Shown here in pieces: positions 6,534 through 20,637 of a stretch of 23,668 nt of DNA. The stretch lies in IMG/VR virus record IMGVR_UViG_3300009151_000396, positions 1 to 23,668 of that record; one strand, written 5' to 3'. This DNA comes from a virus. Below the pieces are notes generated by a model. The model did not search any database. It was not told the DNA's origin and worked only from the letters and a program-made list of their open reading frames with translations. The first letter of the stretch is position 1. Each line of letters begins with the position of its first letter. Both the position numbers and the translations under genes were made by a program.

Positions 6534-8633
6534 ATGCCGGATTTCGGATTCGTAGGGGCTAGTTACGAAGCGCCTAGCATCTACCAAGATGCACAGGAGT
6601 GCATTAACTGGTATCCCGAAGTAGACCCTACCAAAGCACAAGGTGAGCGCGGTGTAGTGGCTCTGTACCCCACGCCGGGGCTAGTCTCGCAGATTGTGTT
6701 GCGAAACCAGCAGGAAGTCAGGGGGATGCGTACCCTGTCAGGTGGCTCAATCCTGTTGGCGGTGTGTGGCCCTTATGTCTACTCGATGGATTCGACTTAC
6801 GTCCCGACCATTATCGGGCAGCTTAATTCGTCCTCCGGTCGTGTCGGCATTACTGACAACGGGCTGAATGCGTACATCGTAGATGGAACGTATCGCTACA
6901 CGTGGAGAATTTCCACGCCATTAGGCGCACAGTTTGTAGGATCAGTCTCAGGAACGACCTTAACCGTCACCCTGATGAACAGCGGAACGATTACGACGGG
7001 TCAGCAACTGTTTGGGATAGGTGTAACTGCGGAAACCGTAATCACAGCGCTAGGCACAGGTTCGGGCGGGGTGGGTACGTACACCATCAATATCTCGCAG
7101 ACTGTCGCATCCAGCACCATGAACTCGGCGGCTGTAGCCTCTGTGATGACTGCCTCAATCGGCAGCGGTGTGCAGTCGTTTGCTGTGACTAATGGCGGGT
7201 CTAACTACTCCAACCCGATCATCACCTTTAACACGCCCTCGGGTGGTGTGGCAGCTACGGGGACAGTGACTGCTGTGGCAGGTGTCATTACTGCGGTGAC
7301 GATCACCAACCCCGGCACTGGCTACAGCACGACCGCGACGTTCACGATTGCCGACACATTGGGCGGAACTGGTGCGTCAGGTACGGGTACGGTCACAATG
7401 GCTAACTACTCTCTGAACGTGACAGCGACTTCGGGAACGTTGTATCCGGGTCAGACCATCCAAGGTACGGGAATTACTGCTAACACCATTATCACGGCTT
7501 TGGGCACAGGTACGGGCGGAACAGGTACGTACAGTGTCAGTCCGTCGCAGACGATCTCTAGCGAGACTATGTATGCGCTGAACTTCACGGTGCTGCCTGC
7601 AACAGATGGCGCATTCTCAGGCGCAACCTCGGTAGACATCCTAGATAACTACATCATCTATAACCGTCCGAACACGCAACAGTTTGGCGCTACGTCTGCA
7701 CTATCGCCATTCTCTCTAGCGCTGTCATTCTCAAGCAAAGACGGATCACCTGACAATCTAGTGGCTGTCATGGTTGACCATCGAGAAGTTTATCTGCTGG
7801 GCGAAGTCTCTAGCGAGACATGGATTGACTCAGGTACGTTTCCCTTTCCTTTGCAGCGCATACCGGGAACGTCTACGCAACACGGCATAGCAGCGAAATT
7901 CTCTATTGCTAGGCTTGGCAATTCGTTTGCTTACATCTCGAAAAACAACCGTGGCGATGCAACGATTGTGCAGATGAATGGCTATTTGCCGCAACGAATT
8001 AGCACACACGCAGTAGAGAACACATTAGAAGGTCAAGTCATTAGCGACGCTGTGGCGTGGTCGTATCAGCTAGAAGGCCACGAAGTCTATGTAATTTCGT
8101 TTCCAACTTTGCAGCTTACGTGGGCTTATGATTCAACGACTGGACTATGGTTCAAGTGGTTGTATTGCACAAATACCAACGAATACCAAAGGCATCGCGG
8201 AAATTGCGCTGCATTTTTTCAAAGTTCTACCCTTGTCGGTGACTATGAAAACGGCAAGATTTACGCATTGAAAAACGGTGTTTATACGGATGATGGTCAG
8301 CAGGTGCGTCGCCTAAGACGATGCCCACATCTAGTCTCTGACTTTCAGCGCCAGTATTTCGACGAGTTGCAGATTCAGTTCCAGCCCGGTGTCGGCGTTT
8401 CTACAGGTCAAGGCGACGATCCGCAGGCTATGTTGAGATGGTCTAACGATGGCGGCTCTACGTGGTCGAATGAGCATTGGACAACTATTGGTCAGATCGG
8501 CAAATACAAAAATCGTGCGATATGGCGCAGGCTAGGCACAGCGCGGGATCGTATTTTTGAAGTGGTAATGACTGATCCTATTAACTGCGTAATTGTCTCT
8601 GCAAACATCAAAGCTACGTCAGGGGAAAGCTAA
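6534..8633 (+). CDS. Packaged DNA stabilization / tail hub protein, P22 gp10-like
   Basis: The 699-aa product starts MPDFGFVGASYEAPSIYQDA then ECINWYPEVDP and YPTPGL, the hallmark opening of the gp10 family. The typical C-terminal half is intact: SKDGSPDNLVAVMVDHREVYLLGE, GTSTQHGIAAKFSIARLG, VAWSYQLEGHEVYVI and LRWSNDGGSTWSNEHW. P22 gp10 is 472 aa. The surplus of about 227 residues matches an insertion at roughly residues 133-350, made of two copies of the module also found in the gp4-like protein (133-197 and 290-347) around a GGSGY-type repeat region (198-290). gp10 binds gp4 to close the neck and holds DNA in the head. Confidence 0.9.
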   Translation: MPDFGFVGASYEAPSIYQDAQECINWYPEVDPTKAQGERGVVALYPTPGLVSQIVLRNQQEVRGMRTLSGGSILLAVCGPYVYSMDSTYVPTIIGQLNSSSGRVGITDNGLNAYIVDGTYRYTWRISTPLGAQFVGSVSGTTLTVTLMNSGTITTGQQLFGIGVTAETVITALGTGSGGVGTYTINISQTVASSTMNSAAVASVMTASIGSGVQSFAVTNGGSNYSNPIITFNTPSGGVAATGTVTAVAGVITAVTITNPGTGYSTTATFTIADTLGGTGASGTGTVTMANYSLNVTATSGTLYPGQTIQGTGITANTIITALGTGTGGTGTYSVSPSQTISSETMYALNFTVLPATDGAFSGATSVDILDNYIIYNRPNTQQFGATSALSPFSLALSFSSKDGSPDNLVAVMVDHREVYLLGEVSSETWIDSGTFPFPLQRIPGTSTQHGIAAKFSIARLGNSFAYISKNNRGDATIVQMNGYLPQRISTHAVENTLEGQVISDAVAWSYQLEGHEVYVISFPTLQLTWAYDSTTGLWFKWLYCTNTNEYQRHRGNCAAFFQSSTLVGDYENGKIYALKNGVYTDDGQQVRRLRRCPHLVSDFQRQYFDELQIQFQPGVGVSTGQGDDPQAMLRWSNDGGSTWSNEHWTTIGQIGKYKNRAIWRRLGTARDRIFEVVMTDPINCVIVSANIKATSGES

Positions 8634-15378: not shown

Positions 15379-15771
15379 ATGTTTCCACTAGGCGCAGTCT
15401 TAGACATTGGCAGCAAGATACTCGACAAGGTATTTCCTGATCCTGCGGCGGCTGAAGCTGCAAAGCTAAAGCTGTTAGAAATGCAGCAAAACGGCGAACT
15501 GGCGGCATTGAATGCTGACGTGTCAGAGCAGCACGAACTGACCGACCGGCTTAAAGCGGATATGTCCTCGGATTCGTGGCTGTCTAAAAACATCCGACCG
15601 ACCACATTGATTTTCATCCTTGTCACCTATACCGTGTTCGGACTTATGTCAGCATGGGATATCGAGGTAAACAAGGAATACGTGCAACTGTTGGGCCAAT
15701 GGGGAATGCTAATCATGTCCTTTTATTTCGGCGGCAGGACGTTAGAGAAAATTATGAGCGTTAAGAAATGA
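15379..15771 (+). CDS. Holin, 3TM superfamily-like
   Basis: The 130-aa product has an amphipathic N-terminus (MFPLGAVLDIGSKILDKVFPDP) and a charged helix (AAEAAKLKLLEMQQNGE). The segment NIRPTTLIFILVTYTVFGLM follows, with a second membrane helix WGMLIMSFYFGGRTLEKIM. The RP before the first membrane helix and the closing GGRTLEK are typical of the GTA/phage 3TM holin family (PF11351) as I recall it. Holins collect in the inner membrane and open it at a set time so endolysin reaches the wall. AGAGG lies upstream of the ATG; the end overlaps the next gene by ATGA. Confidence 0.85.
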   Translation: MFPLGAVLDIGSKILDKVFPDPAAAEAAKLKLLEMQQNGELAALNADVSEQHELTDRLKADMSSDSWLSKNIRPTTLIFILVTYTVFGLMSAWDIEVNKEYVQLLGQWGMLIMSFYFGGRTLEKIMSVKK

Positions 15772-15992
15772 GAGAGAAAACGATCTGTTTCGTGACGATT
15801 CTTGTCAGCATCACGCTGTCGCTGGTCATGATATCAATGGTGGGTGTGTTTCTAGTTGGCTTATTCATGCCTAACAGCATCATCAATAACGACGATGTAT
15901 TCAAGATTATCGGCCCATCGTTTCAAACCATTGTGGGTGGCTTTATAGGCATCCTAGCCGCAGTCAAAGTCACGGAGCGTATTGAGAAATGA
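15768..15992 (+). CDS. Two-TM membrane protein, possible second holin or antiholin
   Basis: The 74-aa product has a short basic N-terminus (MREKTICFV), a long hydrophobic helix at about residues 6-33 (TILVSITLSLVMISMVGVFL), a polar loop (NSIINNDDVFKI) and a second helix at about 50-68 (FQTIVGGFIGILAAVKV). It is translationally coupled at both ends (ATGA with the holin and with the endolysin). Two-TM proteins between holin and endolysin often modulate lysis timing. That role is inferred from context and topology. Confidence 0.75.
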   Translation: MREKTICFVTILVSITLSLVMISMVGVFLVGLFMPNSIINNDDVFKIIGPSFQTIVGGFIGILAAVKVTERIEK

Positions 15993-16513
15993 AGGCTAAC
16001 TGGGAAGCTGCATTCGCTCATGTCATCCAGTCTGAGGGCGGCTACGTCAACGATCCGCACGACAAAGGTGGCGAGACTAATCTAGGTGTGACGCGCATAG
16101 CATGGGGCGAGTATCTAGGCCGCGCAATCATGGATGGCGAGATGCACGCGCTAACGGTTGAGGCTGTAAAGCCGTTCTATAAGCGCCAATACTGGGATCG
16201 CTGCCGGTGCGACGACTTGCCCGCAGGCGTGGACTACGCGGTATTTGATTTCGCTGTGAACGCCGGAACAGGCATGGCTGCTAAGTTTCTACAGCGTGCG
16301 GTAGACACAAAAGACGATGGCGCTATCGGTGCGGGTACGTTAGCTGCGGTATCTAATCATCAGCCTAGCCAAATCCTAGAGCGATTCTCGGATCAGAAAG
16401 AGGCTTTTTATCAGGGCATAGTATCCCGGCATCCCGAACAATCTAAGTTTCTAAAGGGTTGGTTAAGCCGGGTTGAGGCAGTCGAAAAAGCTGCTAACAC
16501 TATGCTGGCGTAA
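15989..16513 (+). CDS. Endolysin, GH108 family N-acetylmuramidase
   Basis: The 174-aa product has the family signature near its start: FAHVIQSEGGYVNDPHDKGG then ETNLGVT, with the presumed catalytic Glu at residue 16 in SEGGY. Further family features are the FYKRQYWDRC region and the DYAVFDFAVNAG segment; the C-terminal region corresponds to the peptidoglycan-binding part found in this family. The enzyme cleaves the glycan strand of murein. There is no signal peptide, so release depends on the holin. It is the last gene of the late plus-strand unit. Its 3' end overlaps the convergent minus-strand gene by 14 bp. Confidence 0.92.
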   Translation: MKANWEAAFAHVIQSEGGYVNDPHDKGGETNLGVTRIAWGEYLGRAIMDGEMHALTVEAVKPFYKRQYWDRCRCDDLPAGVDYAVFDFAVNAGTGMAAKFLQRAVDTKDDGAIGAGTLAAVSNHQPSQILERFSDQKEAFYQGIVSRHPEQSKFLKGWLSRVEAVEKAANTMLA

Positions 16514-16658
16514 CTTTCTTACCGAAGGCAGCGGTTAGCTGCTGCTCGGTAGGTTCACGCTGTTGCGTCTTAGGGCACGATCTGATCTTGCACCACATGA
16601 CATTATCGCCCTTTCGGAAAGCAACGTCACAAACCTTGCACCGTTCATAGTTTTCCAT
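16500..16658 (-). CDS. 52-aa Cys-rich zinc-ribbon-like protein
   Basis: On the minus strand, ATG at 16656-16658 opens a 52-aa frame ending in TAG (CTA at 16500-16502). It begins MENYERCKVCDVAF and has WCKIRSC, giving Cys at 7, 10, 23 and 28 (CxxC...CxxxxC), a plausible zinc-binding set. The C-terminus is plain and polar. It overlaps the end of the upstream 59-aa gene by 14 bp and, head-on, the last 14 bp of the endolysin gene. It is the last gene of the leftward operon. Function unknown. Confidence 0.6.
   Translation of the reverse strand: MENYERCKVCDVAFRKGDNVMWCKIRSCPKTQQREPTEQQLTAAFGKKVTPA
16520..16551. other. Hairpin at the convergent gene boundary
   Basis: TACCGA (16520-16525) pairs with TCGGTA (16546-16551), and inside it GCAGC (16528-16532) pairs with GCTGC (16538-16542) around a 5-base loop. 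It lies 6 bp beyond the endolysin stop and inside the last codons of the opposing 52-aa gene. No T-run follows on either strand, so it is not a classic intrinsic terminator. It may stabilise mRNA 3' ends or pause polymerase. Confidence 0.45.
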
Positions 16659-16824
16659 CATCGTCTTTCATCTGATAAATACAAAAAAGTTTCAGCGATG
16701 AGGCGGTTTTGACGATCTCATCCGCTAGATCACACGCCTTTGCCCAGTCCTTTGCAAGCAGCGCATAGTGCGCGTTTTGGCGCAGTCGCGCAATTTCGAT
16801 AATGCCTTCAGCGTAGTCCATCAT
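16645..16824 (-). CDS. 59-aa soluble helical protein
   Basis: ATG at 16822-16824 (a second ATG follows at once) opens a 59-aa frame ending TGA (TCA at 16645-16647). The product contains YAEGIIEIARLRQNAHYALL and then AKDWAKACDLADEIVKTASS, which suggests two amphipathic helices, and ends in an acidic tail (KDDDGKL). Its start overlaps the stop of the upstream 49-aa gene. The helical, Ala-rich periodicity and chain of overlaps support it as real. Function unknown. Confidence 0.6.
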   Translation of the reverse strand: MMDYAEGIIEIARLRQNAHYALLAKDWAKACDLADEIVKTASSLKLFCIYQMKDDDGKL

Positions 16825-16970
16825 AGTAATTTCCCAAATAAAAGTCCGAGTAAGAATCCTGACAAAATGCCGGTCACCAAGCCTTGCTGAATGGCGCTTT
16901 TACGATGGCGCTCGACAAGCTGCTCAAGCGCATCAGGCTGTAGCGTCTTGATGTATTCGCGGTCAAACAT
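16821..16970 (-). CDS. 49-aa single-TM protein
   Basis: ATG at 16968-16970 opens a 49-aa frame ending TGA (TCA 16821-16823). The first half is charged and helical (MFDREYIKTLQPDALEQLVE); the second half is one membrane helix (residues about 31-49, LVTGILSGFLLGLLFGKLL) with Gly spacing suited to helix packing. Both ends overlap neighbours (8 bp upstream, 3-4 bp downstream). No family is recognised. Confidence 0.6.
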   Translation of the reverse strand: MFDREYIKTLQPDALEQLVERHRKSAIQQGLVTGILSGFLLGLLFGKLL

Positions 16971-17139
16971 GATGCACCGCCCAAAGAATAGCGCCGATTA
17001 AGGCAATGCAAAGACCAGCAAACAGAACAAACGCACAAACATCCTCTGCAAACGTTGTTTGTTTTGTCTTGGGATTACAGACAAACATAAAACCGCAAAA
17101 GCCGATTGCTGCCATTATCAAGCCACTAAAGAAGATCAT
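16963..17139 (-). CDS. 58-aa two-TM protein
   Basis: ATG at 17137-17139 opens a 58-aa frame ending TGA (TCA 16963-16965), with AGGAAA about 6 bases before the start on the minus strand. Two hydrophobic helices (residues about 2-21, FFSGLIMAAIGFCGFMFV; and about 34-55, FVLFAGLCIALIGAILWAV) flank a short polar loop with NPKTKQTTFAED. A hairpin-like membrane protein is likely. It begins 17 bp after the end of the winged-helix gene. Confidence 0.62.
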   Translation of the reverse strand: MIFFSGLIMAAIGFCGFMFVCNPKTKQTTFAEDVCAFVLFAGLCIALIGAILWAVHHV

Positions 17140-17156
17140 GTTTTTTCCTATAAAGA

Positions 17157-17552
17157 TTACGGCATAGGGTTCGGTGGCACTCTTTGCACCAAGACGAGAG
17201 CGTTTTGAATTTTGTCAAACTGTATTCTGTCTGTGGCTTGATTGTCTGACATTTCGAGCATAGAGCCGGATGCTCCTTCAGCCTCCATCGTCGTTGCTTC
17301 CTCATTTTCTAGTTCCTTTATTTTCTTGTAATTGATGCGCCACATCATGTGCTTGGTGCGAGTTTTGCCGTTGTATTGCAGGCGCAAACCCATTCGCAAA
17401 ATTAAACCATCGCGTACCATGCTGGTCATATAGCGAGTGATATTCCCGGCATCGTCGTTGAGGATTATGGCGATGTTGGTGGCGGTCAGTTCCATATTTA
17501 GGCGCAGAACTTCCTGCATACCTTCAATGATTTGACGGGCGCGGGGTTTCAT
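17157..17552 (-). CDS. Predicted winged-helix DNA-binding protein
   Basis: The 131-aa product has a helix at residues about 4-17 (RARQIIEGMQEVLRLN), TATNIAIILND as a second helix, a turn, then GNITRYMTSMVRDGLI as a recognition-type helix. A wing follows (LRLQYNGKTRTKHMMWRIN). This is a plausible winged helix-turn-helix over about residues 4-75. The C-terminal 55 residues are acidic and probably disordered. It overlaps the upstream lipoprotein stop by 4 bp (ATGA). It could regulate the leftward operon or late genes. The fold is a prediction by eye. Confidence 0.7.
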   Translation of the reverse strand: MKPRARQIIEGMQEVLRLNMELTATNIAIILNDDAGNITRYMTSMVRDGLILRMGLRLQYNGKTRTKHMMWRINYKKIKELENEEATTMEAEGASGSMLEMSDNQATDRIQFDKIQNALVLVQRVPPNPMP

Positions 17553-17791
17553 TTCAGATGTGAGGTGAACTTAGGTATGCAGGTCACTTCCACAACCGAA
17601 GGGATCATGTGACCATTGACCTTTCGATTTGTAGTGATGACCATAGCGCGGGTGTTGGAACTTTCGCATTCATTGATTGCTGCAATGACTTGCATCCGCG
17701 ACATGGGAGACACTTCCTTATCGACTAGCAGCAGTGACGTACCATCTGCTGCACAGCCTGTAAGAAGCAAGACAAGACAAAGCATTTTCAT
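17549..17791 (-). CDS. Small lipoprotein
   Basis: The 80-aa product has a short signal peptide with a lipobox: MKMLCLVLLLTGCAADG, with LTGC and the lipidated Cys at residue 13. The mature part (about 67 aa) has QVIAAINECESSNTRAMVIT and an exposed beta segment (SVVEVTCIPKF), with two further Cys that could form a disulfide. A lipoprotein in a phage early operon could act in superinfection exclusion, as known for T5 Llp-type proteins. That role is only inferred. Both ends are translationally coupled by ATGA overlaps. Confidence 0.75.
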   Translation of the reverse strand: MKMLCLVLLLTGCAADGTSLLLVDKEVSPMSRMQVIAAINECESSNTRAMVITTNRKVNGHMIPSVVEVTCIPKFTSHLK

Positions 17792-18051
17792 TTTGCCACC
17801 TGTATGAGTGTGTCGCCGTTTTTGCTTTTCTCACGATTGAAGATCACGGTTATGTCTGTGTGACTTGATTTCGTGGGGATGAAGTGACCATCGAGAATGT
17901 AGAGGTTACGTTCCCGCAAGTAAGCAATGCACTTTTTCCTTGCTTCGTTGTACCGACTTGGGTCTTGTGGTCTCCAATTATCGACGGGTATCAAATCAGG
18001 CTGCAAAGCGTCGTAACTCATCATCCAATGTATTGCGTCGGCTAATCTCAT
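17788..18051 (-). CDS. Hypothetical 87-aa protein
   Basis: The start is placed at ATG 18049-18051, which overlaps the upstream stop (ATGA); a longer in-frame start at 18099 would overlap the previous gene by 52 bp. The product begins MRLADAIHWMMSYDALQPDL and continues with IPVDNWRPQDPSRYNEARKK, a helix plus turn. It ends in beta-type sequence (HTDITVIFNREKSKNGDTLI). It is soluble. The ATGA at its end starts the lipoprotein. No function is known to me. Confidence 0.7.
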   Translation of the reverse strand: MRLADAIHWMMSYDALQPDLIPVDNWRPQDPSRYNEARKKCIAYLRERNLYILDGHFIPTKSSHTDITVIFNREKSKNGDTLIQVAK

Positions 18052-18907: not shown

Positions 18908-19528
18908 TCAACCTTTCTTCAATGCTGCACGTTGTTTGGAATCAAATCGTGACCACAATGCCGTCTTTTCGTCAGCATCAAGGTTTTGATCGTCTATGTA
19001 TTTTTTTGCACTTTCAATATCGTTCAGATTAATTTGAGCAATGACTTCCTCCGCAACGTCAGACAAGAATTTTTGTTCATCGGCAGGCATGGTGTCCCAC
19101 ACAGAAACAGCTATTGACTTGGGCGCTGATTTGGTGGCTGCATTGCCGTCATCGTCCTCATTTTCCGGCGCAACACCAGCGGCAGCGGCAAGGCTATACC
19201 TGCGGGCATAAGTCAAAGCACTACCGTAACCCTGGGCATCTGCCTTGCTAACTGGCAAGTTAAGCACGCCACAAGACAGCCACTCACCGGATGCGTGGAG
19301 CAGGATTGTTTCGACGCGCACTTCGTCTTTGTCGCTAGGTTCGATCCGCTGAATGTAACTCAGTCCGCACTGACCAAATGCAGGGCGGATTGCTTCAACA
19401 ACCGAGGACAGGTCAGCATACTTTGACTTGAAAAACGGATTGGCGCTGTCTTTGATTGCGCCCTTGATGTTCATCTGCGCCATTGCAAGCGCGGTGGCTA
19501 GGTTGGTGATGCTTTCTGATTTGTTCAT
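18908..19528 (-). CDS. erf: ERF family single-strand annealing recombinase
   Basis: The start is ATG 19526-19528, preceded by AAAGG; the extra 21 residues of the longer frame are unlikely. The 206-aa product has both ERF hallmarks: NPFFKSKYADLSSVVEAIRP at residues 30-49 and GYGSALTYARRYSLAAAAGV at 100-119, followed by acidic ENEDDDGN. ERF anneals complementary single strands and is used by P22-like phages to circularise or recombine DNA. P22 Erf is of similar size (204 aa). The C-terminal 70 residues are less conserved and may include a self-association domain. It sits in the leftward early operon, as in P22. Confidence 0.92.
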   Translation of the reverse strand: MNKSESITNLATALAMAQMNIKGAIKDSANPFFKSKYADLSSVVEAIRPAFGQCGLSYIQRIEPSDKDEVRVETILLHASGEWLSCGVLNLPVSKADAQGYGSALTYARRYSLAAAAGVAPENEDDDGNAATKSAPKSIAVSVWDTMPADEQKFLSDVAEEVIAQINLNDIESAKKYIDDQNLDADEKTALWSRFDSKQRAALKKG

Positions 19529-19529
19529 T

Positions 19530-19625
19530 TCAGCAACCTTTCGCAAAACAAAAAATTTCAAGAAAAACATACAAAGACATTGATACAACACCAGTTGTTA
19601 ATAAGATTTTTTCGATGGTATTCAT
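19530..19625 (-). CDS. 31-aa hydrophobic peptide
   Basis: ATG 19623-19625 opens a 31-aa frame ending TGA (TCA 19530-19532). The core is one membrane helix (ILLTTGVVSMSLYVFLEIF). It sits between the 24-aa peptide and ERF with a TGATG overlap at its start, and its last codons (encoding AKGC) contain the ribosome site for erf. It may be a real micropeptide or a coupling ORF for erf translation. Confidence 0.45.
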   Translation of the reverse strand: MNTIEKILLTTGVVSMSLYVFLEIFCFAKGC

Positions 19626-20415: not shown

Positions 20416-20637
20416 ATGAACGTTCAACAAGCAGAAGCGCATTTCGGCAATCGTAGGAAGCTGGCAGAGGCGCTAGGCATCACCAGTCAGGCGATCAGCC
20501 AATGGGTCAAGCGCAAGCAAATGCCCGAAGGCGTTGCCTACAAACTCGAAGTCATTACCGGCGGTGCTTTGAAGGTCAACCCCAATGACTACATCCCCGT
20601 CAAACAGATGGTGGCAGAGATCGTCCCGCAGCAGTAG
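20416..20637 (+). CDS. Cro-like HTH regulator
   Basis: The ATG at 20416 has AAGGA upstream; an in-frame start at 20386 would place the start within the promoter region and is rejected. The 73-aa product has MNVQQAEAHFGNRRKLAEAL and GITSQAISQWVKRKQMP, with the HTH at residues about 14-33, then GVAYKLEVITGGALKV, the shared tail of Cro/YdaS-type regulators. It presumably binds the dyads next to it and turns down early transcription. It is the first gene of the rightward operon, and the leader promoter starts at its stop codon. Confidence 0.87.
   Translation: MNVQQAEAHFGNRRKLAEALGITSQAISQWVKRKQMPEGVAYKLEVITGGALKVNPNDYIPVKQMVAEIVPQQ

Follow-up and report, generated by a model that had tools for sequence, protein, structure and literature searches.

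The closest described counterpart of the locus analysed here is the exo–xis region of phage lambda, in which a chain of genes of about 60 codons (orf60a, orf63, orf61, ea22 and ea8.5) lies distal to the recombination genes in the leftward pL operon. The products of this set include a small helical protein and Ea8.5, which has a zinc-finger fold; translation of orf60a, orf63 and orf61 has been confirmed by ribosome profiling, and they affect the lysis–lysogeny balance (PMC8614690). More generally, spacings of −4 and −8 between consecutive genes are common in translational coupling (PMC12548453). Here, a window of 23,668 nt (positions 1 to 23,668 of the IMG/VR record IMGVR_UViG_3300009151_000396) was analysed, in which four chained minus-strand frames of similar size, hereafter O1 to O4, are likewise distal to a recombination gene. 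In lambda, exo, orf60a, orf63 and orf61 overlap serially by 4, 28 and 20 nt at the same operon position. However, Orf60a, Orf63, Orf61 and Ea8.5 gave no significant match to O1–O4 using hmmsearch or blastp; owing to this lack of sequence similarity, we describe the set as working like exo–xis and not as belonging to it. The two systems differ further in that no counterpart of the membrane proteins O1 and O2 was identified in exo–xis, and integrase and excisionase genes were not seen beside the O1–O4 set.

The contig encodes a P22-type coat protein (PF11651), Erf, a GH108 endolysin and a holin with three transmembrane segments (3TM), and the combination of coat, Erf and endolysin places the phage as P22 type. 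Its coat protein is 82%–87% identical to those of the P22-type metagenomic genomes MW202674 and MW202520 and 55% identical to that of the P22-type Xanthomonas phage PBR31. The lysis cassette, with the holin (15379..15771, +) and the endolysin (15989..16513, +), is directed rightward, and the erf operon is directed leftward, with the gene for the Erf-type ssDNA-annealing protein (18908..19591, −; true start probably downstream of 19591) upstream of O1–O4. MW202674 and PBR31 (the latter for the ssb region) share this opposition of a lysis cassette and a leftward erf/ssb-type layout. The arrangement resembles the lambda and P22 plan, by analogy with which O1–O4 would occupy the far end of a leftward pL-like operon. 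Neither an integrase nor a cI-type repressor could be recognised in the window, so any part in the lysogeny decision would be hypothetical. Promoter and terminator scans gave results at the shuffled or background level. Reading by eye suggested a small frame of HTH-like, possibly Cro-like character at about 20416–20634 (+), which diverges from the leftward operon; beyond it, a DUF1376 protein is encoded rightward.

Counted from ATG, O1 (17139–16963, −) has 58 codons, O2 (16970–16821, −) 49 and O3 (16824–16645, −) 59, and O4 (16661–16500, −) has 53 from its first ATG or 52 from its second at 16658. O1 and O2 overlap by 8 nt (ATGTTTGA), O2 and O3 by 4 nt (ATGA), and O3 and O4 by 17 nt (first ATG of O4) or 14 nt (second). 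These coordinates confirmed the earlier note on this DNA, made from the letters alone, which had reported four overlapping minus-strand frames of 58, 49, 59 and 52 codons within 640 bp. Its judgement that such a chain is improbable by chance was also borne out: among 40,000 random sequences of 640 nt from a first-order Markov model with matched dinucleotide content, a chain of ATG-initiated ORFs of at least 45 codons with comparable spacing reached three members in 24 cases and four in none. Each of the six reading frames contains several stops across 16500–17139, and thus no single longer gene accounts for the stretch. The placement of the chain at the end of the leftward operon likewise held, as the O4 stop falls inside the convergent endolysin gene at its 3′ end, giving an antisense overlap of 14 nt. 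In contrast, the description of the stretch as one that could pass as non-coding did not hold, because it is fully tiled by ORFs, and although the four frames are real, the word 'hidden' and the count of four were overstated, O1–O4 being the distal half of a run of eight serially overlapping genes from 18051 to 16500 (−).

The proximal half of this run starts with o103 (17788..18051, −; 87 aa from a conserved ATG at 18051), which has a strong Shine–Dalgarno (SD) sequence, GGAGG, and overlaps the preceding stop as ATGA. It is followed by lipo80 (17549..17791, −; 80 aa), with a lipoprotein-like N-terminus and a 4-nt overlap at each end, and by wHTH131 (17157..17552, −; 131 aa), a label given from appearance only and for which a Pfam search returned no match. 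Directly upstream of O1 and overlapping it by 14 nt lies zn59 (17126..17305, −; 59 aa), which carries a zinc-ribbon-like CxxC...CxxC pattern. Profiles of endonuclease VII and HNH matched the cysteine region of zn59 weakly, so that the likeness of zn59 to zinc-ribbon or HNH–endonuclease VII-like CxxC proteins, at fewer than 60 residues, is one of marginal scores; O4 had no credible match among these proteins. The last 149 nt of wHTH131 (17157–17305, −) are shared with zn59 on the same strand in a different frame. Within this overlap, dN/dS was 0.20 in the zn59 frame vs. 1.33 in the wHTH131 frame; selection there acts on the zn59 frame, and the wHTH131 frame looks unconstrained. The wHTH131 frame was open through the overlap in 13 of 13 relatives, an outcome that synonymous re-coding would leave in 0.5%–5% of cases, and in relatives at greater distance the overlap was between 8 and 221 nt long.

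Relatives of O1–O4 were obtained from IMG/VR. Two contigs, L001 (92.6% identical over 2.5 kb) and L002 (86%), could be aligned over the entire stretch with no indel in coding sequence, and all four frames were intact in both. Pooled pairwise dN/dS was 0.16 (O1), 0.15 (O2), 0.06 (O3) and 0.10 (O4) in the close clade and 0.33, 0.15, 0.22 and 0.09, respectively, over all relatives; these pooled values are descriptive, because pairwise counts are not phylogenetically independent, a problem from which single-pair tests are free. When the observed substitutions between the window and L002 were re-dealt among like bases within each frame, the deficit of amino-acid changes had P values of 0.0016 (O1), 0.0004 (O2), < 0.0002 (O3) and < 0.0002 (O4). 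The re-dealt substitutions created a stop in 38%–65% of trials, whereas the real L002 frames contained none. Frameshifts or stops accumulating at neutral rates in relatives had been named in the earlier note as the sign that these were not genes; at 86%–93% DNA identity none was found, and dN/dS was low. This pattern of codon substitution shows the four frames to be genuine protein-coding genes under purifying selection.

The predicted proteins fall into membrane and soluble types. O1 contains two hydrophobic segments, predicted to form a two-helix membrane hairpin, and O2 combines a polar N-terminal part with a single predicted C-terminal membrane segment, in agreement with the membrane helices initially attributed to two of the frames. 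Conserved motifs in O1 are GG/SG-x-x-M ... EDxCA ... GxGIxxIG. O3 and O4 have no hydrophobic segment and are soluble. O3 (59 aa) starts with a near-invariant MxDY, belongs to a family widespread in viral contigs and, judging from its residue pattern, is probably helical. O4 corresponds to the CxxC/CxxxxC protein of the first reading (C8/C11 and C24/C29); its pattern is CxxC-x12-CxxxxC, and the four cysteines C8, C11, C24 and C29 are invariant in 14 aligned members. From this cysteine pattern, O4 is a putative zinc-binding protein; the AlphaFold models made alone and with homologues were of low confidence (pLDDT 69 and 61), and Foldseek gave no fold match better than E = 2.9. The first O4 ATG is replaced by ACG in L002 and Met2 is invariant; therefore, the 52-codon version from 16658, as originally read, probably has the true start. 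SD energies were −4.2 (O1), −6.6 (O2), −4.2 (O3) and 0 (O4) kcal/mol against a mean of −1.4 kcal/mol for other minus-strand ATGs, and an SD-like AGGAAA lies upstream of O1. Lacking a Shine–Dalgarno site, O4 is the gene likeliest to need coupling.

None of the four proteins had a credible match in Pfam or PHROG, holin families included for O1, and NCBIfam (O3) and PDB sequence searches were likewise negative. A PDB match of the O1 profile to 8pjs (E 1.6e-5) was rejected, as it spans 14 residues of a designed protein. Searches against these libraries point to O1–O4 as new and essentially undescribed families. Small overlapping genes arranged in this way are commonplace in phages, but the families they encode are new to the libraries covered here. 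Reading of raw sequence can thus find real phage genes of fewer than 60 codons that lie outside Pfam and PHROG models.

Profile searches of the fetched loci yielded 65 non-redundant arrangements, and dozens of distinct viral loci contained divergent homologues of O1 and/or O3. O1, O3 and O4 form alignable families (40, 37 and 24 distinct proteins, respectively) that are usable for annotation. Stop/start overlaps (−4, −8 or similar) are conserved among relatives; O1 comes after the zinc-ribbon gene, in most cases with a spacing of −4 or −14 nt. Among the named phages searched, there was no O1 match, no credible O4 match and one weak O3 match. A weak O3 homologue is found in MW202674 at 8087–8269 (annotated from 8108), just ahead of a recombination-enhancement gene. 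A probable weak homologue in MW202520.1 (1742–1918, −), which has no annotation in the public record, begins inside the endonuclease gene that precedes it, the two overlapping by 4 nt. O1, O2 and O4 were not seen in either genome.

Beyond being real genes, O1–O4 are likely, in our reading, to be accessory genes that are probably co-translated, that occupy the promoter-distal end of a P22-type early leftward pL-like operon and that work like lambda exo–xis. Their co-transcription, coupling, early timing and role are inferred from established knowledge. O1–O4 would be read from one polycistronic early mRNA, downstream of erf and convergent with the lysis cassette, and the overlaps of 8, 4 and 14–17 nt would place terminating ribosomes on the next start. 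Shine–Dalgarno sites may assist O1–O3, and O4 would probably depend on coupling to O3. The products could serve as accessory early proteins acting on the host or on phage development, comparable to the exo–xis small proteins. O1 and O2 would act at the membrane, O3 would be a small helical partner protein and O4 a zinc-binding adaptor.

The set might instead be a cassette of small inhibitors, each useful independently, for host takeover or counter-defence, moron-like rather than developmental regulators; this is a less likely reading, to which the turnover of O2 lends some support. O2 is confined to the clade of the window and missing from most relatives. The complete O1–O2–O3–O4 order occurs in six of the 65 arrangements (spacing −8, −4 and −17/−14), and nearly all of some two dozen arrangements without O2 join O1 to O3 by a 4-nt overlap. 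In three contigs, a different gene of 67–71 codons (DLRDYFAAKAMQGYMNDxYDYDP...; L047:4623–4838, L079:4789–5004 and L107:4801–5004) fills the slot between O1 and O3, also with a 4-nt overlap on O3. O2 is thus an optional cassette that is absent or swapped with the start/stop overlap re-formed, and the slot provides a natural case of such small-gene exchange. Recombination within O1 also fits a cassette of inhibitors, as does the mixture of short proteins with no relation to one another, some of membrane type and some putatively zinc-binding. The O1 concerned (L055:5001–5177) is a recombinant of two phage clades with the break inside the 58-codon gene: its first 36 codons match the clade of the window (102/108 nt), and the remainder matches the other clade (54/66 nt vs. 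34/66). However, the zinc-ribbon gene is, like O1, O3 and O4, mostly kept in fixed order under strong purifying selection, which argues against independently useful genes. In a broader proposal, which we regard as rather unlikely, the zinc-ribbon gene would make up, with O1, O3 and O4, a conserved undescribed early set of P22-type environmental phages that jointly reprogrammes the host membrane or transcription, with the O2 position as a dedicated effector-exchange slot.

An alternative to accessory genes of the exo–xis kind is that all four proteins are subunits of a single heteromeric complex whose ratio is set by coupled translation. Coupled pairs are described in the title of a reference cited in PMC12548453 as often encoding subunits of one complex; the overlap spacings at this locus are typical of such pairs, and O4 directly follows O3 wherever it is present (−14, −17 or −32 nt). 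A complex of all four is nevertheless improbable, as most relatives lack O2 and O3 lies in some contigs 1.6–4.7 kb away from O1 or in other operons. It is also quite unlikely that O1 and O2 serve lysis as an antiholin, a pinholin or factors of lysis timing. Although the two-helix hairpin of O1, the single C-terminal helix of O2 and the closeness of both genes to the endolysin 3′ end (no more than 0.7 kb) would suit such a function, the genes are located downstream of erf on the other, early-type strand, the lysis strand already has a 3TM holin, O1 stays with the zinc-ribbon gene in divergent relatives and O2 is dispensable. Finally, spurious ORFs in a non-coding or regulatory RNA stretch that would separate the endolysin from the last real gene, a reading that could appeal to four short frames without a family match, have a negligible probability and are refuted by codon-level selection (dN/dS of 0.06–0.16, with no stops or indels in close relatives). 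Divergent homologues that keep residues and order, and the absence of an Rfam match, also count against them.

Scans of bacterial genomes revealed no O4 relative and a single O1 relative, on an Armatimonadetes metagenome-bin contig. This contig (CAIRTT010000066.1:1–2322), binned as Armatimonadetes, carries partial zinc-ribbon, O1 and O3 homologues; it may represent a prophage or a phage that was binned wrongly. A second O3–O4 pair was observed on the opposite strand near the end of another contig (L046:6780–7119, −), which may be a true inverted copy or an assembly artefact.
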